Source of the DNA: a virus
Direction: 5' to 3' (one strand)
Virus record (IMG/VR): IMGVR_UViG_3300020442_001684
Location: 1-23,534 of that record
Length of the DNA stretch: 23,534 bases
In this document: in pieces, positions 7,753 to 21,900 of the stretch
How the letters are laid out: each line of letters opens with the position of its first letter
Numbering within the stretch: position 1 is the stretch's first letter
Notes under the pieces: generated by a model
What the model was told of the DNA's origin: nothing
Seen by the model: the letters and a program-made list of their open reading frames with translations, nothing else
The model's database searches: none
Made by a program: the position numbers and the translations under genes

Positions 7753-8211
7753 ATGATACAAGCAAGTGGTTGTTGTTTTCTTGCCTTGGATACTGGCAGG
7801 ATCATGTTGCAACAAAGAAGTAAAAAAAGCAGTCACCCATTAACTTGGAGTTTTTGGGGAGGTAAAGCTGACAAAAAAGAACGTCCTATAGAAACATTAT
7901 TAAGAGAATGCAAAGAAGAAATGGGACCACTTCCTGACATTGCAAAAGTTCATCCATTACATACTTTTTTGAGTGATGATAAAAAGTTTACCTACAATAC
8001 ATTTTGCGTAACAGTGTTTGAAGAATTTATTCCTAGTTGTAATTATGAAAGCAGTGGATATTCATGGGTAAGCATAAACTGTTGGCCCAAACCTTTACAC
8101 AGAGGTGCAAGAGTTGTGCTATCAAATAAACAACTTGTAGATAAACTTGTAACCATTTATGAACGTGAAAAAGATCAAACAGATTTACCAAATTGGTTAG
8201 ACAGTTTTTAA
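7753..8211 (+). CDS. Nudix hydrolase
   Basis: This 152-residue protein has a complete Nudix box at residues 37-59: G37, E43, R51-E52, E55-E56 and G58 in GKADKKERPIETLLRECKEE. The box coordinates Mg2+ for cleavage of nucleoside diphosphates linked to another group. The domain starts at residue 1 (ASGCCFLALDTGRIMLQQRS). PLTWSFWGGKA just before the box is usual for the family. I recall similar Nudix proteins in T4-like cyanophages. The substrate cannot be read from sequence: oxidised nucleotides, nucleotide sugars or capped RNA are all possible. It follows the fibre gene by one base with only a weak ribosome site, so translation is probably coupled. Its stop shares the TTAA at 8208-8211 with the stop of the convergent SGNH gene. 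Confidence 0.85.
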   Translation: MIQASGCCFLALDTGRIMLQQRSKKSSHPLTWSFWGGKADKKERPIETLLRECKEEMGPLPDIAKVHPLHTFLSDDKKFTYNTFCVTVFEEFIPSCNYESSGYSWVSINCWPKPLHRGARVVLSNKQLVDKLVTIYEREKDQTDLPNWLDSF

Positions 8212-8900
8212 AATATGTCCTTTACAAAATCTGTTGTCAAATCAATTATTGTAGTTTTTCTTAAAAAATAATCTGTAAATTTATTAGCCAGCACTATATG
8301 ATTCTCTGGACTTAAATGACAATCTTTAATGTCTTTTTTATTAATTTTGTCCAGCCATTTTTGTTTGTTTTCCCAGCCACCGTGTTCTTGTGCATCAATA
8401 TCATACAAAGATCCTTCATTGCAATTATGTAGGTGATTCCATTCAAAACACGGAATAACAACCAATTTAACATTTTTCCTTTGGGCAAATATATGACACC
8501 ACGCTATCATATTTTCCAAACTTATCTTCCAATCTTCTTCATTATCATGTAGATAAGTGTAATAGTATTCAATTGCCTTTTCTTGCTGTTTGGAAATTAA
8601 TTTATTGTACACAGCATTATGATTAGCAATCTGTGGGTGTTCAGCAAAAAACCAATTTCTAGTCGCACTAGTTGTTACAACTACCATATAATCATTTGCA
8701 CTGATGTGTGGACTATTTTTAATTATTTCATGACACAAGTAATTATTAGAACAACCATATTGTCCAATAACAGATACATGTTTAGTTTGTAAATTTTTTC
8801 CAAGTATATAGGGCCATGCTTTTTGTTCGTCAATCCATTTCATTGTAGTCATATTAGGTAAAACAAAACTATCGCCTACAACCCATAAATTAGCTGTCAT
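8208..8900 (-). CDS. SGNH/GDSL-like hydrolase
   Basis: The start chosen is MTANLWVVGDSFVLPN at 8900, giving 230 residues. It has AAGGTGA about 8 bases upstream. The longer frame to 8921 would add only seven residues and lacks a site. GDS with Ser11 sits at the N-terminus as in SGNH esterases. Near the C-terminus DCHLSPENHIVLANKF fits the family's Asp and His block, and GCSNNYLCHEI (about 48-58) could hold the Gly and Asn blocks. Such enzymes remove or move acyl groups on sugars and glycans. As the last gene of an ADP-heptose-like operon, overlapping the cupin gene by 11 bases, it may deacylate or acylate a glycan. This is inferred from context. The catalytic blocks II and III are not certain. 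Confidence 0.6.
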   Translation of the reverse strand: MTANLWVVGDSFVLPNMTTMKWIDEQKAWPYILGKNLQTKHVSVIGQYGCSNNYLCHEIIKNSPHISANDYMVVVTTSATRNWFFAEHPQIANHNAVYNKLISKQQEKAIEYYYTYLHDNEEDWKISLENMIAWCHIFAQRKNVKLVVIPCFEWNHLHNCNEGSLYDIDAQEHGGWENKQKWLDKINKKDIKDCHLSPENHIVLANKFTDYFLRKTTIIDLTTDFVKDIF

Positions 8901-9261
8901 TCTGGCTGTCACCTTTACCAATTCTAAAATTATCTTCTACACTATCAGGAGTACTTACTTCTATCAATACACAATCATTTTCCATAGCAATCAATTGATG
9001 AGGAATCATTGGTTTGTTACGCCAAGTATCACCAGTTTTAAGAACTTGAGTCATTGTTTCTGCTGTATTTGTATCCATTAAATGTAGCATAAAACTTCCT
9101 TTTAGTACATACCAACTTTCATCTTTTTCTTTATGAAAGTGCATACTAAACTTTGCACCTTTGCGATCAAAGAACAATAGTTTTCCGCAATACTTTTCGT
9201 TGGTTGCCCATATTAACTCTCGGCCCCAACCTTTTTCTTGTACGCCATCAAGTTGTGTCAT
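8890..9261 (-). CDS. Single-domain cupin, sugar isomerase-like
   Basis: This 123-residue protein shows cupin motif 1 as H41-F-H43, E48 and G55 in SMHFHKEKDESWYVLKG. Motif 2 is around GDTWRNKPMIPHQLIA with G77 and H88. These residues normally bind one divalent metal. The opening GWGRELIWATNEKYCGKLLFF resembles the start of cupin-type mannose-6-phosphate isomerases and small sugar cupins encoded beside nucleotide-sugar genes. It overlaps the hldE-like gene by 14 bases and has an AAGGAT ribosome site inside that gene. The place in the operon suggests isomerisation or epimerisation of a phosphorylated sugar. It might substitute for a missing heptose-pathway step, but that is speculation. Confidence 0.7.
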   Translation of the reverse strand: MTQLDGVQEKGWGRELIWATNEKYCGKLLFFDRKGAKFSMHFHKEKDESWYVLKGSFMLHLMDTNTAETMTQVLKTGDTWRNKPMIPHQLIAMENDCVLIEVSTPDSVEDNFRIGKGDSQNDS

Positions 9262-10399
9262 TGTTTATCCTTTGTATTGTATTTGTAGTACTGTAATTTT
9301 TTATTGATGGTATGATTACTACTTCAGCAAGTTCATTTCCTACAACTGTATCAACAGTGTAATCGCCACCTTTAGTAATTATGTCCGGTTTTACATTTTT
9401 GATTAATTGCTCTGGTGTATCTTCATCAAATAAAATTACTTCATCAACAAAATCCAAACTCTCTAATAGTACTTTTCGATCAGTTTCATTGTTTACAGGT
9501 CTATCATTCCCTTTTATTCTTTTAATACTACGGTCTGTATTTAAACCAACTACCAACCAATCGCCTATGTCTTTGCTTGCTCGAAGCATTTCTATATGCC
9601 CTCTGTGTACAATATCAAAACAACCATTGGTAAAAACTTTGGTTTGTTCTATATCACCTTTTTTAAGTATGTAAGTGCCTTGATGTTTTACGCTCTCTGT
9701 ACTAGCATTGACAGCCATTTGTAAACATTTCTCATGACTATAGTTTTTAGTTAACGCATATACAAAAGCGGCTATAAAACAATCACCAGCACCTGTAACA
9801 TCTGACACTTCCACTTGTTGCACTGGAATATCATAATGTTTGCCTTCAATAGAAGCATGTACAGTTTGACCTGCATTTGTAGTAATAATATTGCCATGCC
9901 ATTTATCAAATTCAAAGTCAGACATTTCTTTATGATTAGGTTTTACTAGCCATGCATCTGTGTATTCAGTTGCATTACGTTTAGGATCTACAATAACTTT
10001 AGATCCATGACTATTAATGTATGCAATAATTTCTTTAGCATTATCTAACACACCTTTGTTGTAATCACTTAGTATTACATAATCAAAGGATCTAAAATCA
10101 CTACACAATACATTTCTTAGCACAGATACTCCATCACCTTTTTTATCATCATCTAAACGTGTTACATAATGCCCATCACAAATAATTCTAGTCTTTGTAC
10201 TATAAGGTTGCTTTGTTTCAAACAAACTAACATCTACACCAAGACTTTTTAAGTTTTCATACACCAATGATGCACCACCCATTGTTGTTTTTTCTTCTTT
10301 GAATGTGACCACAGGCACAGGAGCTTCTGGACTAATTCTTGTGCTAGTTCCGTAAATATATTTGTCTTGTATTACATCACCAATTATACATACTTTCAT
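9248..10399 (-). CDS. hldE: Bifunctional heptose kinase / nucleotidyltransferase, HldE (RfaE)-like
   Basis: This is a 383-residue fusion. Residues 1-245 are a PfkB/RfaE sugar kinase: IIGDVIQDKYIYG, RISPEAPVPVV, GGASL, ILSDYNKGVL, then the anion hole and catalytic base in DVTGAGDCF (GAGD 203-206). Residues 254-383 are the cytidylyltransferase-fold half: FTNGCFDIVHRGHI with HRGH 265-268, IKGNDRPVNNETDR, PDIITKGGDY and YSTTNTIQRI. In bacteria HldE phosphorylates D-glycero-D-manno-heptose 7-phosphate and transfers AMP to the 1-phosphate, giving an ADP-heptose for LPS core. E. coli HldE has about 477 residues. This one is shorter because of losses inside the kinase half and in the linker, yet the key motifs remain. 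It follows hldD with a 4-base overlap and a GAGG site. Another heptose or sugar substrate is possible. Confidence 0.85.
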   Translation of the reverse strand: MKVCIIGDVIQDKYIYGTSTRISPEAPVPVVTFKEEKTTMGGASLVYENLKSLGVDVSLFETKQPYSTKTRIICDGHYVTRLDDDKKGDGVSVLRNVLCSDFRSFDYVILSDYNKGVLDNAKEIIAYINSHGSKVIVDPKRNATEYTDAWLVKPNHKEMSDFEFDKWHGNIITTNAGQTVHASIEGKHYDIPVQQVEVSDVTGAGDCFIAAFVYALTKNYSHEKCLQMAVNASTESVKHQGTYILKKGDIEQTKVFTNGCFDIVHRGHIEMLRASKDIGDWLVVGLNTDRSIKRIKGNDRPVNNETDRKVLLESLDFVDEVILFDEDTPEQLIKNVKPDIITKGGDYTVDTVVGNELAEVVIIPSIKNYSTTNTIQRINNDTT

Positions 10400-11265
10400 A
10401 AATTTGCCTCAACAAATTCGTCTGGAGATATAAATTGATGATTTATAAGAGTATTCAATTTACTATTATCACTACAAGTATACATTTGATAAATGCCCTT
10501 TAGATCATCTGGTACTGGTATATATTCTATACTTGCATTGTAATGACTAGCAATAAGTTTTGCCCAGTACTCAAAAGTATATGTAGTACCTGTACCCAAG
10601 TTACAAATAAAACTTTGGTCATGTTGCAAGCACTCATACATGATATGCACTACATCTTCAACACAAACAAAGTCACGTTGCACATTATTACTGCCTTCAA
10701 ATAGTTTTATTACGCCTGTTTCTTTTGCTTGATTAATAAAATTTGTATATGGACTTCCCATTCCTATAGCCTGTTTGTGGCTTTCTCTATTTCCGTATAC
10801 ATTAAAGAATCTCCAACTTTGTATCTTGTTTACAATGCTATTTCTAATAATGTTATCACAAATAAGTTTGCTACTAGCATACAAATTTTTAGGAGCCTCG
10901 TTTGCTGGATCTTCTTGTGTATCTGTGTTATCTCCGTATACACTTGCACTGCTGGCAAAAACTAAAGTGTTACATTTTTCTAATAGTTGTCTAGTATAGA
11001 TAACATTACTAGAATATATTTTATCCCAATCAGTTTCTTTTGTACTACTGTTGGCACCCATATGCCAGACTATGTCGCTTCTATCTATGTTTATATCCAG
11101 CAATTCGTTTGGACTTATTAAGTCTATAAAGCTAAGTCCTGCAATATTTTTTGTCTTGTACATAGACAACGTGTCCACCAATAACACATCTGTGTGTCCT
11201 TGTTTGTTTAGATGTGCAACTAGATTACTGCCTATAAACCCAGCCGCACCCGTGACGATATGCAT
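10396..11265 (-). CDS. hldD: ADP-heptose 6-epimerase-like SDR, HldD (RfaD)-like
   Basis: This 289-residue short-chain dehydrogenase/epimerase has the NAD(P)-binding loop VTGAAGFIGSN at 4-14. Catalytic residues appear as Ser in ASSASVYG (104-111), and Tyr129 and Lys133 in YASSK. Matches specific to HldD rather than general sugar epimerases are GANSSTKETDWD, RFFNVYGNRESHK (Lys164 aligns with the HldD substrate-site Lys), LFEGSNNVQRDFV, NLGTG and IEYIPVPDDLKGIYQMYT. HldD turns ADP-D-glycero-heptose into the L-glycero form. It is the first gene of a four-gene operon and has a strong AGGAG ribosome site and a near-consensus promoter. The next gene supplies its expected substrate. It is slightly shorter than E. 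coli HldD (310). Confidence 0.87.
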   Translation of the reverse strand: MHIVTGAAGFIGSNLVAHLNKQGHTDVLLVDTLSMYKTKNIAGLSFIDLISPNELLDINIDRSDIVWHMGANSSTKETDWDKIYSSNVIYTRQLLEKCNTLVFASSASVYGDNTDTQEDPANEAPKNLYASSKLICDNIIRNSIVNKIQSWRFFNVYGNRESHKQAIGMGSPYTNFINQAKETGVIKLFEGSNNVQRDFVCVEDVVHIMYECLQHDQSFICNLGTGTTYTFEYWAKLIASHYNASIEYIPVPDDLKGIYQMYTCSDNSKLNTLINHQFISPDEFVEANL

Positions 11266-11286
11266 TGTTGACTCCTATTTTGTACT

Positions 11287-11315
11287 AGTATATAGTAAAA
11301 AATCTTTCGTGTCAA
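11287..11315 (-). promoter_or_regulatory. Strong sigma70-type promoter for the heptose operon
   Basis: On the minus strand TTGACA (11315-11310) and TATACT (11292-11287) are separated by exactly 17 bases. The -35 is perfect and the -10 matches 5 of 6. The hldD ATG follows about 22 bases downstream with AGGAG between. It implies transcription by unmodified host polymerase, hence early or middle expression. Confidence 0.8.
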
Positions 11316-11322
11316 GATTAAC

Positions 11323-11330
11323 TATAAATA
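11323..11330 (+). promoter_or_regulatory. Late promoter for the small ORF, ALA synthase and bilin reductase cluster
   Basis: TATAAATA is a perfect match to the T4 late element. It is followed by TAACT and the ATG at 11336, the same 5-base spacing seen at three other genes in the window. It lies back to back with the sigma70-type promoter of hldD, so the two clusters would be switched at different times. Confidence 0.7.
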
Positions 11331-11335
11331 TAACT

Positions 11336-11521
11336 ATGTTAAAGTACATTAAGGAATGGATCAAAGATTACAACGAAGCTACAAATGAGTTTCATAAAAT
11401 GGGCTTTTTTACGTTAGGCACATGGTTTGGTTCATATACATATTTAGATAAAGAGATGTACAACGAATATCATGATAGACAAAGACAGATTTCAGAACGT
11501 AATAACCAATCTGAAAGGTAG
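11336..11521 (+). CDS. Small protein of unknown function (61 aa) ahead of ALA synthase
   Basis: This short frame starts at the ATG placed 5 bases after a perfect TATAAATA late element. It begins [19 protein letters not shown], an apparently amphipathic helix. A short hydrophobic stretch ([16 protein letters not shown], about 22-37) is too short and polar for a clear membrane segment. A charged tail [18 protein letters not shown] follows. Its last 50 bases overlap the start of the ALA synthase gene in another frame. No Shine-Dalgarno sequence precedes it, as in the other late genes of this window. I recognise no family. The promoter placement is the main reason to regard it as real. A role as a membrane-associated or partner peptide for ALA synthase is only a guess. 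Confidence 0.55.
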
Positions 11522-12656
11522 TGGTAATTATAGAGTATTCAATGACATACTCAGAGAACGTGGAGAATATCCACAGGCAATTTACTACGGGCCTTACAAT
11601 ATTAAAAATATTGTTAATTGGTGTAGCAACGATTACTTGGGCATGGGTCAACACAAAGTTGTGTTAGACGCAATGCATACTGCATTGGATCAGACAGGAG
11701 CAGGTAGTGGTGGCACAAGAAACATTGGCGGTACTAGTCATTACCATGTTGCATTAGAACACGAACTGTCGAAATTACACAATAAACCGTCGTCTTTGTT
11801 ATACTCCAGTGCATATGTTGCCAACGAATGGACACTTATAGCACTCAGTAAAATTATAAATGATATTGAATTTGTAAGTGACAGCAAGAATCATGCAAGT
11901 CTTATACAGGGTATCAGACATAGTGGTGCACCAAAACACATATTTGAACACAACGACATGGATAGTTTAGAACAAGCACTAGCACAAGTAGAAGGTACAG
12001 CCTGTATTGTGTTTGAAAGTGTATACAGTATGGATGGATATACCAGCAAAGCAAAAGAAATAATTGACCTTGCTGAAGAATATCAAGCTATAACTTATTG
12101 TGATGAAGTACATGCTGTTGGTCTATACGGTGATACAGGTGCAGGTTATTTAGAACTACTAGGATTACAGGACAAAATAGATTTTGTAAATGGCACATTG
12201 GGTAAAGCATTTGGTTGCCAAGGTGGATATGTTGCAGGAGATGATGTTGCCATAGATGCAATTAGAAGTGTAGCAAGTGGCTTTATTTTTACTACAAGTA
12301 TGAGTCCAGTGATATGTGCCGGAGCATTAAGCAGTATAAAATATTTGCGTAGTGAACATGGTGTTGAATTAAGACAACAACATCAAAATCGTGCTAATAG
12401 ATTGAAGAAAATACTTAGACACAAAAATATAAACATGATCGAAAATGAAACACATATTGTTCCAGTGCTGATAGGCAATGCAGTACGTTGTAAACAAATA
12501 AGCGACACACTGTTAAATGATCACAACATTTATGTACAGCCTATTAACTATCCAACAGTACCAGAAGGCACCGAACGTCTGAGATTTGCACCAACGCCAA
12601 TGCACAGTAACGCAATGATTTCAGATCTTGCAGAACGATTAGAGGAAGTATTATGA
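11472..12656 (+). CDS. hemA: 5-aminolevulinate synthase (ALAS, Shemin pathway)
   Basis: This 394-residue PLP enzyme condenses glycine with succinyl-CoA to 5-aminolevulinate, the first committed step of heme synthesis in alphaproteobacteria. The N-terminus [15 protein letters not shown] and GNYRVF with Arg21 agree with ALAS. So do [26 protein letters not shown] (Thr82, Asn84), His141, [10 protein letters not shown] (Asp211, His214), [16 protein letters not shown] with the PLP lysine Lys245, and the end [20 protein letters not shown] and the C-terminal motif separate it from the related AONS and KBL enzymes. The length is close to bacterial ALAS (about 400). No heme-regulatory CP motif was seen. 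It lacks a good ribosome site. The next gene begins inside its stop (ATGA). Phage-borne ALAS has been reported from aquatic viruses, to my knowledge. Confidence 0.92.
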
Positions 12657-13324
12657 GCGAAATATGGGATAAACTTATAGCATGTGAACAAAAGATAATT
12701 GAAAAGTGTGCTAGTTTAGGAGAAGAACAATTCGATGATCCTGAGTTTGATTGGCTAAACAGAGTATTCAAAGGTGAACATTTTAGACGAGCTCATATAG
12801 ACAGTGTTGATGCTAGAGCTACAAAGGGCTTGTACATGACTCATATTTGCGTGTTTCCTAACTTTGATAACGATGCACCTATATACGGATTTGATATTAT
12901 TGCAGGTAAAAAGAAAGTTACTGGTGCTTTCCATGACTATTCACCTACCGTAGATTGGAATCATCCTATGTGTAACTTGTTTAGAGATTGTGTGCAACAT
13001 TTAGAATGGCGTAAAGAACGTGAATTACCAGACTGGGCTAAAGCAATATTTTCAGGTAATATGGTAGCTGTAGGTAATGTAAACACTGCTGAAGAAATGG
13101 ATCAAGTTGTTCAGGTTGCATTAGATAATCTAGATATGTATTTTGAAGAATTACCAAAATATACTAATACTAATTACAATACTTCCTTAATAAAGGATCA
13201 ACAGAATAGATACTGTCATTATCAAAAACAAAACCCCCATACACCAAGAGTAATGGAAACACTTGGACTAGATCCAAATGATGTAAAACATTTTATACAG
13301 GATTGTTTATTTCCAGAAGTTTAA
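12653..13324 (+). CDS. Ferredoxin-dependent bilin reductase (PcyA/PcyX-like)
   Basis: This 223-residue protein would reduce biliverdin IXalpha to an open-chain pigment using electrons from ferredoxin, without metal or cofactor. The diagnostic core is [23 protein letters not shown]. Its His64 and Asp81 are 17 residues apart, the same spacing as His88 and Asp105 of cyanobacterial PcyA. Other family signs are the stretch [18 protein letters not shown] and the end [20 protein letters not shown] with FIQDCLFPE. The form with both His and Asp, in a non-cyanobacterial phage beside ALAS, points to the viral PcyX group, which makes phycoerythrobilin. PcyA, PebS and PcyX cannot be told apart firmly here. 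It is coupled to hemA by ATGA and has a GAGGAAG site. Its stop shares TTAA with the convergent gene. Confidence 0.87.
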
Positions 13325-14385
13325 TCTTTGTTTTGAAACTCTGGTTTTTTTGGTCCTTTTGGATGACCATCTATAGTTGTAGGATCAAAATCTTCTGATT
13401 CTTCAGGCGGAGGCGGTGTTTTATCTTCATCTATTTTCATATCATACAGTTGATCCAATGTTAAAGTTAACCATTCCTGTTTATCTATATTCCATAATAC
13501 AACTTTGTTATCTCGCTTATATCTTAGATTGTATGGTTCCCAATGTACCTTATCCCATTCGGGTTCATGTGGTATTTTATCAGGCATTAGTGTAACTAAT
13601 ACATTTCTTACTAGATTAGGATCATCGAACTCATCTGGTCTACTATCAATTTTAGGATCAATTTTATATGTGACTTTAGCTGTAAATCTTGTCAACTTAT
13701 CCATAATCCAAAGTTGATCCGGATACCAGTATCTTAAATGCATGTTCCACATGTGATGAATTCTCCTTATGTTAAAATGTCTCCATTCTTGTCTATCATT
13801 GTCGAAAGCAAACATCCATGGATCACTATCATATATATTATTTTTAGGATTATTATCTCCATGAGGTATCAAATCATGTCGCAAAGTAATTACTTGACTT
13901 TTGACAGTTTGCGGAGGTTGATTTATTCTTAGGTCACTACCTGGTAGATCAATATGTTCATTTTCTTTACTGTCAGGTTCTATTCCGCCTATATCAGTGT
14001 AAACTATATCCTGTTCTAACAAATAAATCATATGATTTTTCATCTTATTAATGTCTTCTTCAAAAACATATTCTTCTGCATGTTCAGGATATTTCTTAGC
14101 CCATTCACAATCTGATATTGTGTGTTGGTCAATATACATCTGTCTATAATAATTGTTTATGAATCCGTCAAATAATATATCTACAGGACTAAACCAATCT
14201 TTATCCCAAGGAGGTCCTTCCTCACGTTCATCCCATTTTAACTCAGTCCAATGATACTTTTTAAATTTAGGATCCGGATTGTCTGGGTGTATATGTTTTG
14301 GATTTTCATATTCTTTGGCAAAAACTTCATAGGGCGTGGGATCAGTCCACACCGGTCCGTTTATTTCTCTAGGATCTTTGCTCAT
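13321..14385 (-). CDS. Protein of unknown function with an internal duplication (354 aa)
   Basis: No family is recognised. The protein is acidic and rich in Trp, Tyr, His and Pro, with a Pro-rich tail (DKTPPPPEESEDFD, about 321-334). Two segments resemble each other: residues 164-213 (VITLRHDLIPH, then DNDRQEWRHFNIRRIHHM) and residues 261-316 (VLVTLMPDKIPH, then NIDKQEWLTLTLDQLYDM). They share the order TL..D.IPH, a Trp or Tyr stretch, and D.QEW followed by a helix, which indicates a duplicated domain of about 55 residues. The N-terminal 130 residues look different and are rich in Trp and Pro. It is the last gene of the glycosyltransferase and carbamoyltransferase operon, with an ATGA overlap, and may act on the same glycan. 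A structural role is also possible. It has no signal peptide or membrane helix. Confidence 0.7.
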   Translation of the reverse strand: MSKDPREINGPVWTDPTPYEVFAKEYENPKHIHPDNPDPKFKKYHWTELKWDEREEGPPWDKDWFSPVDILFDGFINNYYRQMYIDQHTISDCEWAKKYPEHAEEYVFEEDINKMKNHMIYLLEQDIVYTDIGGIEPDSKENEHIDLPGSDLRINQPPQTVKSQVITLRHDLIPHGDNNPKNNIYDSDPWMFAFDNDRQEWRHFNIRRIHHMWNMHLRYWYPDQLWIMDKLTRFTAKVTYKIDPKIDSRPDEFDDPNLVRNVLVTLMPDKIPHEPEWDKVHWEPYNLRYKRDNKVVLWNIDKQEWLTLTLDQLYDMKIDEDKTPPPPEESEDFDPTTIDGHPKGPKKPEFQNKD

Positions 14386-16235
14386 TTGTTGTCCACTTTA
14401 ATTAGTTTTCCGTATTCAGGCAAATACAAATACTCAATATCACTATTTGCTAGTGTTCTTACTGCATCATCTAATGTTTCTACCAATGGCTCTCCACCTA
14501 AGTTAAAACTTGTGTTAAAAATAATTGGACAATCTGTCTGCTTGTACCATTCTTTAATCAAGTTATAATAGTTGGCATTTTCTTCTTCAGTAACAGTTTG
14601 TATCCTACATGTTCCGTCCACATGTATAATACTTGGTATTTTATCTTCAATTCCAGGCTGACAATTTACCGCATACATCATGTGTGGGGTATCTTCCATA
14701 CCTTTTAAATCGAACCATTCGTGTACATGTTCTTTGAGTATAGTACCTGCAAAAGGTCTGAAATATTCTCTCTTTTTAATTTTATTAACATGATCTTTAC
14801 CGTTAGGATCTGTTGGATCGTATAGTATACTTCTGTTTCCTAATGCTCTTGGTCCGTTTTCACAACCACCTTGAAATATAGTTACAATGTTTCTATCCTT
14901 GATTAATTTAACAATATCCTCTTTTGAAGCATCTTTAATTTTTGCTTCGTATAGATTACACACCTTATCCATATCATCTGTTGTATAATTGTAGGTTTGA
15001 CCCAAGTAAATATTTTTATCTAAATCTATAAATTTTTCTGTGTGTTCTAAATGGGCAAACAATGCCGCTCCAATGGCTGTACCAGCATCATTGCTAATAG
15101 GTTCTACATAAAGTTTTATTCCTAACTCATTTAATTTGTCTAAGTAAAAGTAATTTGCTACACAATTTAAACCATATCCACCTGATATTACTACGTTTTT
15201 ACTATCACACATTTCAGATGCTTTTATTATCATTTCCAACATTTGTTCCTGTGTTTCAGTTTGTACTGCATATGCTAAATCTTTTGCTAACTGATGATCA
15301 TAATGATACTTTCCTTCTGCTACATTAACATCAGCATAATCTTTGATAAGATTTTGATTTATAAATGCACCATTGGGATAATTAGGCACAACAATATTTC
15401 TATTAGACGTGGGCCAATACTTGCTTTGTTTATCCATGTACAAAGGATCTATTTTATCATTTGGTTTTCCATATGGAGATAGTCCCATTGTTTTTCCTGC
15501 TTCAATGGCTTGCCAACCACAAAATTCAGTTACAGCCTCATATATTTTAACAGTACCTGCATGATCGTTGAGATATGCTTTATGATCGTTAAGACCTTCT
15601 CTTCTCATAAATCCAGTAGCCTCAGATTCAAATGTAGATGATATAATCGGATCTCTCGATCCAAGACATTTAAACTTTGTTATTATAGGATTTTTTGCTT
15701 CCTTATTACCTTTGAATATTGTTTCTACTTCCCATCCTATTGTGTTCTTTCCACCATTTGGACCTATTCCATCTTTAATAGGTAAAAAGCTACCAGCACC
15801 ATCAACAATTAAAATTGCGGCTTCATCAAAATCACTTTTACTAAAAGCGGTAAAGGCATGTAATTTATGATGCTCCATACCATAATCTGTAATTTGCGGA
15901 TGTTCGTCAGCAATATCAACATCATATGTCGTATTTTCAATAAGTCCTAGTTTTCTTAAAAGACCAGCATAAACATTTTCTCCAGTAAATTCTGTTCTCG
16001 AATCTTCTCCTGAACCTACACGAGCAGGCTGTGTATGTGCAAATCCAACTGCATCTAATTTGTCAGTGTATTTTAAAACTTCTATTATACTTCTATAAGG
16101 TGCTCCGTCATATTTTTTCCTTGTATAACGTTCTTCTTCTGTGCAAAATACAATTTTGCCATTTTTAAGCAAACAGACACCTGCGTTGTGTCCTCTGGTA
16201 AGTCCTAATATCCATGTATCTTTTTGTTCGTTCAT
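14382..16235 (-). CDS. Carbamoyltransferase, NodU/CmcH (TobZ-type) family
   Basis: This 617-residue enzyme is full length for the family. The N-terminal part is a Kae1-like carbamoyladenylate domain: ILGLTRGHNAGVCLLKNGKI (9-28), CTEEERYTRKKYDG, the metal-site pattern EHHKLHAFTAFS (121-132), ILIVDGAGS (141-149), and VISGGYGLNCVANYF. The C-terminal domain has GGCENGPRALGNRSI (456-470), REYFRPFAGTIL, and CPIIFNTSFNLGGEPLV. Such enzymes make carbamoyl-AMP from carbamoyl phosphate and ATP and put the carbamoyl group on a sugar or antibiotic hydroxyl. The acceptor cannot be read from sequence. It is coupled by ATGA to the GT9-like gene upstream and to the 354-residue gene downstream, so a glycan acceptor is the natural inference. 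Related genes are known in marine phages, to my recollection. Confidence 0.9.
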   Translation of the reverse strand: MNEQKDTWILGLTRGHNAGVCLLKNGKIVFCTEEERYTRKKYDGAPYRSIIEVLKYTDKLDAVGFAHTQPARVGSGEDSRTEFTGENVYAGLLRKLGLIENTTYDVDIADEHPQITDYGMEHHKLHAFTAFSKSDFDEAAILIVDGAGSFLPIKDGIGPNGGKNTIGWEVETIFKGNKEAKNPIITKFKCLGSRDPIISSTFESEATGFMRREGLNDHKAYLNDHAGTVKIYEAVTEFCGWQAIEAGKTMGLSPYGKPNDKIDPLYMDKQSKYWPTSNRNIVVPNYPNGAFINQNLIKDYADVNVAEGKYHYDHQLAKDLAYAVQTETQEQMLEMIIKASEMCDSKNVVISGGYGLNCVANYFYLDKLNELGIKLYVEPISNDAGTAIGAALFAHLEHTEKFIDLDKNIYLGQTYNYTTDDMDKVCNLYEAKIKDASKEDIVKLIKDRNIVTIFQGGCENGPRALGNRSILYDPTDPNGKDHVNKIKKREYFRPFAGTILKEHVHEWFDLKGMEDTPHMMYAVNCQPGIEDKIPSIIHVDGTCRIQTVTEEENANYYNLIKEWYKQTDCPIIFNTSFNLGGEPLVETLDDAVRTLANSDIEYLYLPEYGKLIKVDNK

Positions 16236-17185
16236 TTCTTTGCTTTTACTCCGGTCATTGTTTTGACAGATTTAACAATTCTATCAATGCACTTGTACTT
16301 GTCTTTAAAAGTTAAACATCTATCATTATTACGTTCTACATGATCATCATACGTTAGTCTAATTGGACTATACATTCTTTTATCTTCATCATAATCAATT
16401 ATATCAACTTTACTGTTATCAGGATAACTTGTATTAATTGGGTAAGTACTTCCTATAATAACTGTACTGGTTGTTTTGGTTGCTACTGCCATATGTTGTC
16501 CGACGCTGTCTATACCAACAAAATGATCTGCCGCATCAATTACACTTGCCCACTGTCTTAGTTCTAATTTAGGTGTTCCAACTGGATCAGGACAACCTCT
16601 GGATTTCCAATCCATTGCAAACTCGGACATAAGAATCACTGCATAATCATTTTTTTGCAATTTTTTTACAAGTTCCACAGTATCCATTATATCTAAACTT
16701 CTTCCACCACTATCATGCACATAACCTTTTTGTTCAACTGCACCTCTACCAAAAGGTTGTAGTACTAATGCTTTGTCTTTTTTAGTTTTTTCTTTCACAT
16801 CAGCTACAAGATGATATGCATTTACTTCTTCATTGCTACTCAAATACATGCTGGGCAAAGGAACTTCTCGTATACCTTTGTTGTTGATTTCTATGTCGTA
16901 TGCTTGAGCTAGACTACACTGCTGATTGTAATATTCCCATATTCTGTATGGTTCAGTGCTAACACATTTTCTGTGTTTGATTTTTTCTTCAAATAAATTA
17001 GGAACGTCCATTGTAAATGAACGCTTGTGCAATAACGGATGGCCTCTTACTAGGTCAAACCATGACTCTAATATTACAATAAAATCGTCTTCTGGATTTT
17101 CTTTATGATAAAGTTCGAGTGCTGGTATGGCACACAGTACTCTTCCAGCGCCGCCATTTAAGAAAAAGGCTGTATGTTTTTTCAT
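16232..17185 (-). CDS. Glycosyltransferase family 9-like (heptosyltransferase-like)
   Basis: This is a 317-residue GT-B type protein. The N-terminus FFLNGGAGRVLCAIPALELY (7-26) corresponds to the G.GD.L...P....L loop of ADP-heptose:LPS heptosyltransferases. The C-terminal nucleotide-sugar half has ALVLQPFGRGA (139-149), RQWASVIDAADHFVGIDSVG with Asp225, QHMAVATKTTSTVIIGSTYP with His231, all in GT9 order (D..G..H.A.....V.I.G.T.P). GT9 enzymes move heptose from ADP-heptose to a growing glycan. The nearby hldD and hldE-like genes would provide the donor. It opens an operon with the carbamoyltransferase and has both a sigma70-type promoter and a GAGGT ribosome site. Overall similarity to classical WaaC/WaaF is loose, so donor and acceptor are uncertain. 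The end KAKK overlaps the next start. Confidence 0.7.
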   Translation of the reverse strand: MKKHTAFFLNGGAGRVLCAIPALELYHKENPEDDFIVILESWFDLVRGHPLLHKRSFTMDVPNLFEEKIKHRKCVSTEPYRIWEYYNQQCSLAQAYDIEINNKGIREVPLPSMYLSSNEEVNAYHLVADVKEKTKKDKALVLQPFGRGAVEQKGYVHDSGGRSLDIMDTVELVKKLQKNDYAVILMSEFAMDWKSRGCPDPVGTPKLELRQWASVIDAADHFVGIDSVGQHMAVATKTTSTVIIGSTYPINTSYPDNSKVDIIDYDEDKRMYSPIRLTYDDHVERNNDRCLTFKDKYKCIDRIVKSVKTMTGVKAKK

Positions 17186-17949: not shown

Positions 17950-18915
17950 CTAGGTATCGTAACTTATTAAAATAACGCCTTGTGAACCGCATCCGCCAAA
18001 ACAACATCCGCCACCACAAGCACCGCCGGTTGTTGCACCACCTCCTGGGGTAAATCCGTTACATCCACAATATGCCCATTGTCCATTTGCCGCACAACAT
18101 TCGTTTTGGAAACCACCAGCATAACTGGCTCCTCCGCCACCTCTAGTGCAACTTATATTACATGTTCCACCTAATCTACTAAATCCCAATGCTCCTCGTC
18201 TACTAATAAACGTTTCATTGGCATTACTTGTTCCTGATGCCGCACAACCTGAACTACAGCAAGTATTATTTGGAGCGAAAAAAGTATCTACTGCACTTCC
18301 ACTGTTACCGTTAGATCCTCCGCCTGCGAAATTTTGAAATGGATTACCAAATTGATCTTGTCCACCTTGTTGCATGGTTGTATTTGTATTCTGCCAACCC
18401 GTAGCACTTGTACCTGAACCAGCAGTTCCGGCACCGCCGCCACCTGCATTAAAATCATATTCTTCGTTTATACTTTGCATATAACTTGGTGTACCACCAT
18501 AGTTACAACATGAACATCCTCCTTGTCCACCGCCTATGCAAGTACATCTAGGACCTGAACAATCATCAATTCTACTAAATTGTCCTGGTGAACCATCACT
18601 ACTGTAAGAACTACAATAACATGCACATGCACAGAAACAAGTTGTTATACTACTACCACAACTCCATGGGCTCCATTGCATTACACCGTAGTTGGCTCCG
18701 CCGCCTCCTCGGCAACCCCATTCACAACAACAGCTATTAGCACCGCCGCCGCCCATGCCCCATAACTCATTTGTCCAAGTTGTAGCACTGTTTGGAATAC
18801 AGTAGCAACATGCACCGCAACAAGACCATGTATATAGCTGACCAGCAGTTCCGTGAGTAACTCTGTCCATTGTTATGCCAGTACCAGCTCCGAAAAAATC
18901 TTTAATACTTGCCAT
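17950..18915 (-). CDS. Gly/Cys-rich presumed tail-fibre tip adhesin (gp38-like position)
   Basis: This 321-residue protein has about 71 Gly and 34 Cys by hand count. After MASIKDFFGAGTGITMDR come Cys clusters: SCCGACCYC (32-40), SCCCEWGC, CFCACACYC, CTCIGGGQGGCSCC. A Cys-free Gly/Asn/Ser middle follows (about 150-215), then further Cys/Gly clusters up to GGACGGGCCFGGC. The last residues GSQGVILISYDT resemble the closing beta strand of glycine-rich phage fibre ends. In T-even phages such as T2 and S16, gp38 follows the long-fibre gene, caps it, and binds the receptor through packed polyglycine helices. This gene also follows the giant fibre gene directly. Cys richness on this scale is not part of that known family. 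A perfect TATAAATA late element and an AAGGAAAG ribosome site precede it. Disulfides or metal binding are both open. Confidence 0.65.
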   Translation of the reverse strand: MASIKDFFGAGTGITMDRVTHGTAGQLYTWSCCGACCYCIPNSATTWTNELWGMGGGGANSCCCEWGCRGGGGANYGVMQWSPWSCGSSITTCFCACACYCSSYSSDGSPGQFSRIDDCSGPRCTCIGGGQGGCSCCNYGGTPSYMQSINEEYDFNAGGGGAGTAGSGTSATGWQNTNTTMQQGGQDQFGNPFQNFAGGGSNGNSGSAVDTFFAPNNTCCSSGCAASGTSNANETFISRRGALGFSRLGGTCNISCTRGGGGASYAGGFQNECCAANGQWAYCGCNGFTPGGGATTGGACGGGCCFGGCGSQGVILISYDT

Positions 18916-18962: not shown

Positions 18963-21900
18963 TTATACCAAATTGGTAATACGCCAACCATTTGTAGCAT
19001 CCATATACACAAGCTCTAGTGCAGTTTCACTGTAATCAATCTCTAAATCTTCTTCTTTACCGTGTATTATATTACCGTTTCTAGCTACTGTAATCTTATT
19101 GGTATCCGCTGAACCAGTAGCGTCAATTATCATCAAGAAGTCTCCTACACTCGGACTTGCTGGTAAGGTTGCTTGAACGGAACTGCTAGTATCTACTAGA
19201 TATGCTTTTCCTTTAACCGCGTTAAAGTTTGCAGTCTTAACTTCATATTGGTATCCACCTGAAGCATCTGCCCATTCTGGTATTCCACTACCGCTGACTG
19301 TTAATGATTGTTCAGCTGAACCAATACCTAGTCTTGTTAGTTTTCCACTTGCGTTTCTATAGTATACATCTCCTGTTGCATCACTACCCAAATTTGTTGT
19401 TACTGTACTGATTGCCGCACCATCTCCTAGTGTACCGCTTGTTACTGTACCAATAGTTGTTATGTTGGCACCAGTTACACCATCAACATAAGTTTTAACA
19501 GCTTGTTCTGTCGGAACAGCGGTGTTACTGTTACCACTTAATGTTCCATCACTACTAAATTCATTGATACTTTCACCTAATTGAGCACCAATACTACCCA
19601 ATCTCAAACTTGTAAGACCTGCTAGATCAAATGCACTTGCATCCAATGTAGCTCTACCTGTAGCTTGGTCAACTCTAAAATAACTACCAACTCTAAAATT
19701 ACCATCTTGGTCTGTGCTTACATAATAAACACGACCTGGATATGTCTCTGTCACTTCGTTACCTTGTGAAGCCGCTTGAGTTGGTTCACCTGGATAGTTG
19801 GTTGTTGTTCTACCACCAGTACCAATACTCAAGAAGTCATGTCCTGTTAATCGTACTTGGCTATAACCGTATCTAATTTTAAATTTTTGTCCATAATAAG
19901 TTGCACTTGTATTTTGTTTTTCTGTAGCTAGTGTAACAGTACAGGTACCTTTAAGTACTGGGTCTTGTGTTTGGTTAAAACCAGTAACTGCGGTAATGAT
20001 ATACGTTAATGAATCAGCACCATATCTAGGAGCTTCTGTAATATCTGAATTATCAGTAGGATTATATGTATGACCAGTTATAAACTCGATACTAGCACCT
20101 GCTCTAGGTTCTTCTGGAAGTCCAGCTAGAACTAATGCAAATCCAAATTGACCTTGGTTTGCATTTCCTGTATTAACAAGGTCGGCACTCTGACCATCTT
20201 GTGCAGTGATGGTTGAGTTATTAGCATATGGATATCTGGTTACACCTGTAAATCTTTCTCTGAATGCATCTGCTGTACTGTGTTGTGTTGTAGTTGTATA
20301 ATCAATTACAATATTCTGATGTGTTGAGCTAATATTATTAGCGGTTGAACTAATATAAGTGTGTGCATATTGCTGTCCAACAGGCGAAGCTCCAACATTT
20401 ACTGTAATTGTTGTTGCCGCAACATCAATAATTTTAACATACCAACTTGTATTTGCAGGATCACTGCTTCTCGGATATGTATGATTTGTTGCATTACTAT
20501 CTTGTGTACAAGTAAAAGTAATACTGTCAGTATCAATGTGTACAAAATCACCTGCTACTAAATTGTGTGATCCAATTGTTAAAACTAAAACACCTGTAGC
20601 TGGATCATATACTCCATTACTTGATGTATATGGAGTTGTGCCACCCATTCCAGGATGATTTACACAAACTGCATACAAGTCAGCTGTAGCACCTACTACC
20701 CGAACTTCTCTTTGTGTCGCGGCATTGAATCCTGTATTGTATGCGGCTAAGTTTGCCTGCAAGACCCCATCTAAATAATATTCTACAGCATTACCTGATA
20801 GCCCTGTTGCGGCATCTTTTGTTGGATTATATTCTGTTCCACCGTTGTGTGTTCCATCTGGCGTAGTACTAAAATACAATGGATGATTATTGTTACTTAA
20901 ATCATTTTGCTCAAAGATATACATTCTATGCTTTGTATCCATCTTTAATGTTGGCAATTCTTGCCCATCAAACCAAAATTTGTTGCCAGAGCCGTCATTT
21001 TGTACGTGAACTTTAATTGATTGTCCTGTATATCCTCTTTGAATGTCATTGAGTACCAGTCTATGTTTGGTTGCTGGATTTAAATTTGTTTGAATATTTG
21101 CAACTGTTGATGTTGTTTTAAATTTAAGTATGTTACCACCACCAAATGCTGTGCCTGTTAGCACTCTTTCAGCAGTACCACCACTTACATAGGCACTAAA
21201 TCCTGTACCGTCTAGTGTCGTTGTTAATCCTGCATCTGTATAAAGTTCAACTGTATTAGCTGTAACATTGTTTGCATAATAGCTGTTTCCGTTCAACTGT
21301 GTCATACCAACAACACCACTTATATTTTGTACTAAATCTCCGTTTGAATATCCATGCCCTGTCATTGTTACAACAACTGGATTGGCTCTTGTAGCATCAG
21401 ATATTGTTTCTGTTACTACACCCCAGCCTGCAACATTCCTTGTATCAAAATAATTTGTTAAATCTGCATTGGTACATATTCTAAATGTAGTTGAATCAAC
21501 TACATCTGCATACCAAGTTCTGTTGTACATGCTTGCTGTACCATGACTTCCTAGTAGTTCTTGCCATGCTACAGGAGTAACACCACTGAATGCAATCATA
21601 TCACCTTCTGCAAGTCCATGAGCACCACTTGTTACAACTGTACATTGTTGTTCATTTGATACACTTGAAACTGCTACGCTTGTGTCAGTGCCAATTGTAA
21701 TTACGTCTCCTACTGTAAATCCATCTGGTGTGTTAAGTGTACTTGCTTGATACTCAACTGTATCACCGTACATGTAACCACTCAGTGGTACTTCATTTGC
21801 ATCAAAGCCAATACTGATAGCACCATATGTACCATAACTGTTATTACCATTCAATGCACGAATCTTACCACCGCCTGTACATACATAGCCCATGTCACAA

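Follow-up and report, generated by a model that had tools for sequence, protein, structure and literature searches.

An alaS-pcyX gene pair of PA5oct-like phages as a probable re-arranged part of the viral tetrapyrrole cassette

Phage genes for 5-aminolevulinate synthase (alaS) have been reported alone, in three-gene cassettes (together with hemO and pcyA/X) and in broken cassettes, and the viral enzyme (vAlaS) was studied there by complementation and enzyme assays, with the AlaS, HemO and PcyA of the freshwater homologue CB_2 found to be active (Wegner et al. 2024, PMC11480375). As phage alaS had thus already been linked in print to bilin genes, along with proof of activity, the gene pair described here (found in a 23,534-nt viral stretch, hereafter the window) belongs to a known kind, of which it shows a re-arranged form, and its exact gene order may already figure among the supplementary listings of that article. 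The cassettes resemble our locus in their enzymes, in a viral AlaS clade lying next to alphaproteobacterial AlaS, and in missing the equivalents of His342 and Cys400 of the Rhodobacter capsulatus enzyme (RcA). The main text of that study presents full cassettes, broken ones (hemO and pcyA/X together, with alaS nearby) and alaS alone, whereas in the window alaS overlaps pcyX and hemO appears displaced; moreover, gp13 had grouped the contigs of that study with pelagimyophages, while the window phage seems to be PA5oct-like. The PcyX of oceanic phages (5OWG, EBK42635; Mosig EXVC030M gene 53) is about half identical to the window reductase and has the same fold, the equivalent of Asp55 and the His/Asp pair, but is preceded by hemO and not by alaS. 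The hemO-pcyA-alaS island of Bradyrhizobium ORS278 (cited in PMC11480375) unites the three functions of the phage set in one unit; it is, however, bacterial, its PcyA makes phycocyanobilin (PCB) and a phytochrome lies adjacent, whereas no phytochrome was seen at the window. As a side observation, a Mosig gene annotated as 'putative ferrochelatase' (EXVC030M, L155:8354-9124) seems to bear more resemblance to a 2OG-Fe(II) oxygenase-type protein, which makes its annotation look doubtful.

In the window, alaS (11472-12656, plus strand, 394 aa) is joined to the gene for a PcyX-type ferredoxin-dependent bilin reductase (FDBR; 12653-13324, plus strand, 223 aa) by an ATGA stop/start overlap (12653-12656). 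The ALA synthase identity put forward in the initial annotation is borne out by the NCBIfam model 5aminolev_synth (TIGR01821: 546 bits, cut-off 339) and by the nearest structures, which are ALAS enzymes (7x98 and 2bwn). The alternative that the first protein is an AONS or KBL, or else a decayed enzyme, draws on common superfamily membership and on the fact that the models for bioF (AONS) and glycine C-acetyltransferase (KBL) also match; both matches, however, fall under their cut-offs (308 bits against 426 and 302 bits against 460, respectively), and the tree, which the initial annotation had named as a check, places the protein inside the single clade that all phage AlaS form (support 99), adjoining alphaproteobacterial AlaS. 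Decay is likewise contradicted by low dN/dS and by intact catalytic residues: the equivalents of RcA K248 (K245 in the window protein), D214, H217, T83, N85, T365 and R374 are all present, as is the previously highlighted 10-residue stretch at 211-220, and 12 of the 13 active-site positions examined do not vary among the phage and bacterial AlaS in the comparison, the exception being a lysine that differs within either group. We therefore regard this alternative as extremely improbable.

The phage AlaS clade also takes in a few sequences from bacterial bins. Phage-type AlaS was observed in the bins G047 (L251, L252, L263-L265) and L248-L250, the former also holding three bilin reductases; these are probably mis-binned phage contigs, and the published 'Rhodobacter-like bin' exception may reflect the same mis-binning. 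Among isolated phages no full-length AlaS was found, the matches being AONS/KBL-like at below 37% identity. With respect to regulation, His342 of the R. capsulatus enzyme has been named part of a heme feedback site (Wegner et al. 2024, PMC11480375); the window protein has R339 at this position and terminates before the place of Cys400. Since 27 of the 28 bacterial AlaS compared also lack His342 (a single one carries it), such evidence does not make escape from feedback a trait peculiar to phages, and this weakens the published inference that its absence makes viral AlaS special.

The second protein matches the Fe_bilin_red family, in agreement with its earlier description as a PcyX-like reductase. 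PcyX (5OWG) is its best phmmer match (8.5e-63), followed by PcyA, and ranks first by fold among the structures matched by the predicted model (AlphaFold, pLDDT 88), namely PcyX, PcyA, PebA and PebS. The residues H64 and D81, noted previously, align with PcyA His88 and Asp105 and are invariant among 90 representative viral FDBRs, while D50 aligns with Asp55 of Mosig PcyX and with PcyA Glu76. In an FDBR tree built without alphaproteobacterial PcyA such as that of Bradyrhizobium, and hence not informative on the split inside the AX lineage, the reductase groups with phage PcyX, separate from cyanophage PcyA. To judge by these likenesses, the product would most likely be phycoerythrobilin. A PcyA-like activity, yielding phycocyanobilin or another bilin, is in our view unlikely: the window protein and its clade carry Asp at position 50, which has been termed a PcyX-specific residue (PMC11480375), and the protein is 48% identical to Mosig PcyX. 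It nevertheless belongs to an FDBR family within the PcyA/PcyX branch, position 50 is Glu in 20 of the 90 representatives (Asp in 61), and the E/D residue is no proof of product, for the related freshwater phage enzyme of CB_2, placed near PcyX, was found to act as a PcyA (PMC11480375); FDBR regiospecificity is also said to be hard to predict from sequence (PMC13193486). Searches of 385 alphaproteobacterial genomes for FDBRs gave matches in two genomes only, and the phage contigs searched held neither a ferredoxin as electron donor nor a bilin acceptor of the phycobiliprotein family.

The gene pair is not confined to the window, as alaS stands directly before pcyX in 28 other viral contigs. 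The ATGA coupling, already pointed out in the initial annotation, is kept in 27 of the 27 relatives whose junction sequence was read out, which is far beyond chance. Both genes are under purifying selection (dN 0.03-0.13, dS 0.6-1.2, dN/dS ~0.04-0.14 for either one). Within the window's FDBR clade (15 representatives, support 100), 11 further genes are partnered by alaS and three nested ones are preceded by hemO, which indicates that the upstream partner of pcyX has been exchanged; alaS occupies the place where hemO normally precedes pcyX.

No hemO is present within the 23.5-kb window, and accordingly none is adjacent to pcyX, a circumstance that the initial annotation had singled out as the least explained part of the pairing. 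It is probably a product of the short window. A heme oxygenase search recovered hemO in G003 and G022, and a search with the found hemO as query added G028 and G029; these four long contigs, in which alaS, pcyX and hemO all occur in one genome, carry an intact orphan hemO (i.e. one with no pcyX beside it) at ~24, 19, 38 and 32 kb from the pair (G003, G022, G028 and G029, respectively). The G003 gene is an intact frame of 177 aa with a GDLSGGQ signature, and the orphan genes form a single clade (support 99). By nucleotide alignment, the right end of the window corresponds to position 20573 in G003 and 50071 in G022, with hemO at 32994 and 54033 (~12 and ~4 kb further on); from this synteny, the hemO of the window phage would lie ~4-12 kb beyond the right end. 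The strongest counter-example is G002, which has 31 kb on the hemO side without the gene, though distances in relatives reach 38 kb; the clade contigs lacking hemO are fragments. A phage devoid of heme oxygenase that reduces host-made biliverdin would fit the content of the window itself, but seems very unlikely given that hemO was found in four contigs of the same clade, always of the one orphan lineage, and that synteny puts it 4-12 kb past the window edge. The apparent gap is probably closed by hemO elsewhere in close relatives.

Upstream of the pair, the initial annotation had set the module start at 11336, which is instead the start of a separate small ORF (11336-11521, plus strand, 61 aa) that overlaps the alaS start by 50 nt. 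This ORF is a real gene under strong purifying selection: across 10 relatives its dN is much lower than its dS, and the indels in a 13-row alignment are in frame. Its product has no Pfam or NCBIfam family and no function assigned; it is predicted to fold as a helix-hairpin-helix, for which no significant fold match was obtained, and the gene is possibly leaderless. The motif TATAAATA (11323-11330, plus strand), just outside the originally delimited range (11336-13324), had been read as a perfect late element. Its conservation at the site stands: it is kept in 19 of the 22 loci compared (window included; some are near-duplicates), these being all 19 that share the upstream arrangement, and in every relative so arranged it lies five bases ahead of the ATG of the 61-aa gene. 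Its frequency offers no such support, as we found 2 copies in the window (3.5 expected, i.e. no more than chance) and 4 before genes in the 198-kb relative G022 (2.7 expected, not enriched); a promoter claim from motif frequency was dropped because of this missing excess. Being conserved locally yet not enriched genome-wide, the motif may be a T4-type late promoter. In the sub-group L018-L020 (80% identical) a different upstream frame replaces the 61-aa gene, and in L018 (5588-6004) a DUF454 membrane-protein gene with an ATGA overlap with alaS stands in its place. In Avibacterium, iron restriction was reported to raise the expression of DUF454 (PMC7970244), a weak hint at iron economy.

The phage origin of the fragment, proposed previously, is supported, and protein similarities place the phage in the PA5oct-like jumbo lineage and not with the Mosig-type pelagimyophages. 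Its neck and sheath-stabiliser proteins are nearest to those of PA5oct-like phages and of Sinorhizobium phage Phosso (only 21-25% to Mosig), and the terminase of G022, the longest relative (a 198-kb fragment, against the more than 200 kb expected of a jumbo-phage genome), is 57% identical to that of PA5oct and 34% to that of Mosig. The PA5oct-like jumbo phages (Arenbergviridae) and Phosso share with the window the order of neck, sheath-stabiliser, structural protein and NUDIX genes, but no bilin reductase or true AlaS match is reported for these isolates. The pair is flanked (8208-11265 and 14382-17185, minus strand) by genes for an HldE-like kinase/cytidylyltransferase, an epimerase, a cupin, a carbamoyltransferase and a glycosyltransferase 9, and this sugar-nucleotide and glycosyltransferase setting suggests surface-glycan changes. 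A block comprising a 237-aa gene of unknown function, the cupin, HldE-like and epimerase genes, alaS and pcyX is inverted between the window (8861-13324) and G022 (33446-37812), with the flanks in place. Further along, adjoining the tail-fibre genes, lies a 321-aa protein (17950-18915, minus strand) with 34 Cys and 71 Gly and no Pfam match.

Taken together, we consider it likely that the pair represents two genes of the phage tetrapyrrole cassette already described (alaS, hemO and pcyX), re-arranged in a jumbo-phage lineage. Phage AlaS would make ALA, which host enzymes would carry on to heme; phage HemO, encoded elsewhere in the genome, would open the heme to biliverdin IXalpha and free its iron; and PcyX, with host ferredoxin, would reduce the biliverdin, most likely to phycoerythrobilin. 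For this scheme, gene identity, catalytic residues, purifying selection, linkage and the hemO of four relatives were obtained in the present analysis, and the activities of AlaS and HemO and the product of PcyX are taken from the literature on homologues. The two genes would be expressed together late, and the benefit may be a tetrapyrrole flux that is kept up along with controlled heme turnover, in which bilin formation would render heme cleavage irreversible while iron is freed. Since nothing would be gained by building heme solely to recover its iron, a phage alaS speaks for an ongoing tetrapyrrole flux or for the bilin itself; that heme is boosted late in infection and diverted to a bilin with a non-photosynthetic role, as proposed earlier, is plausible.

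It is also possible, though doubtful, that alaS contributes to the heme supply of the infected cell in general (respiration, B12), with its coupling to pcyX a mere neighbourhood effect in an auxiliary-gene hotspot and the bilin branch separate. Tetrapyrrole supply was proposed as the main benefit by Wegner et al. (PMC11480375), most of the distant vAlaS loci (70-74%) lack a pcyX beside alaS, and the pair has glycan genes on either side and is part of the block inverted in G022; against this, the ATGA overlap is found in every checked case of the window's clade, and hemO and pcyX occur elsewhere in several contigs in which the two genes are not adjacent. A more far-reaching version of the re-arranged cassette, to which we give little credence, would have the whole de novo route to a bilin operate in jumbo phages whose hosts are non-photosynthetic, with alaS and pcyX as one late operon, hemO controlled separately and the 61-aa protein as a new partner (regulator or carrier) in tetrapyrrole flux. 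With the re-arranged cassette as the preferred reading, viral tetrapyrrole genes now extend to the PA5oct-like phage lineage, and alaS overlapping pcyX provides a clean natural arrangement in which to ask whether phages make heme for bilin.
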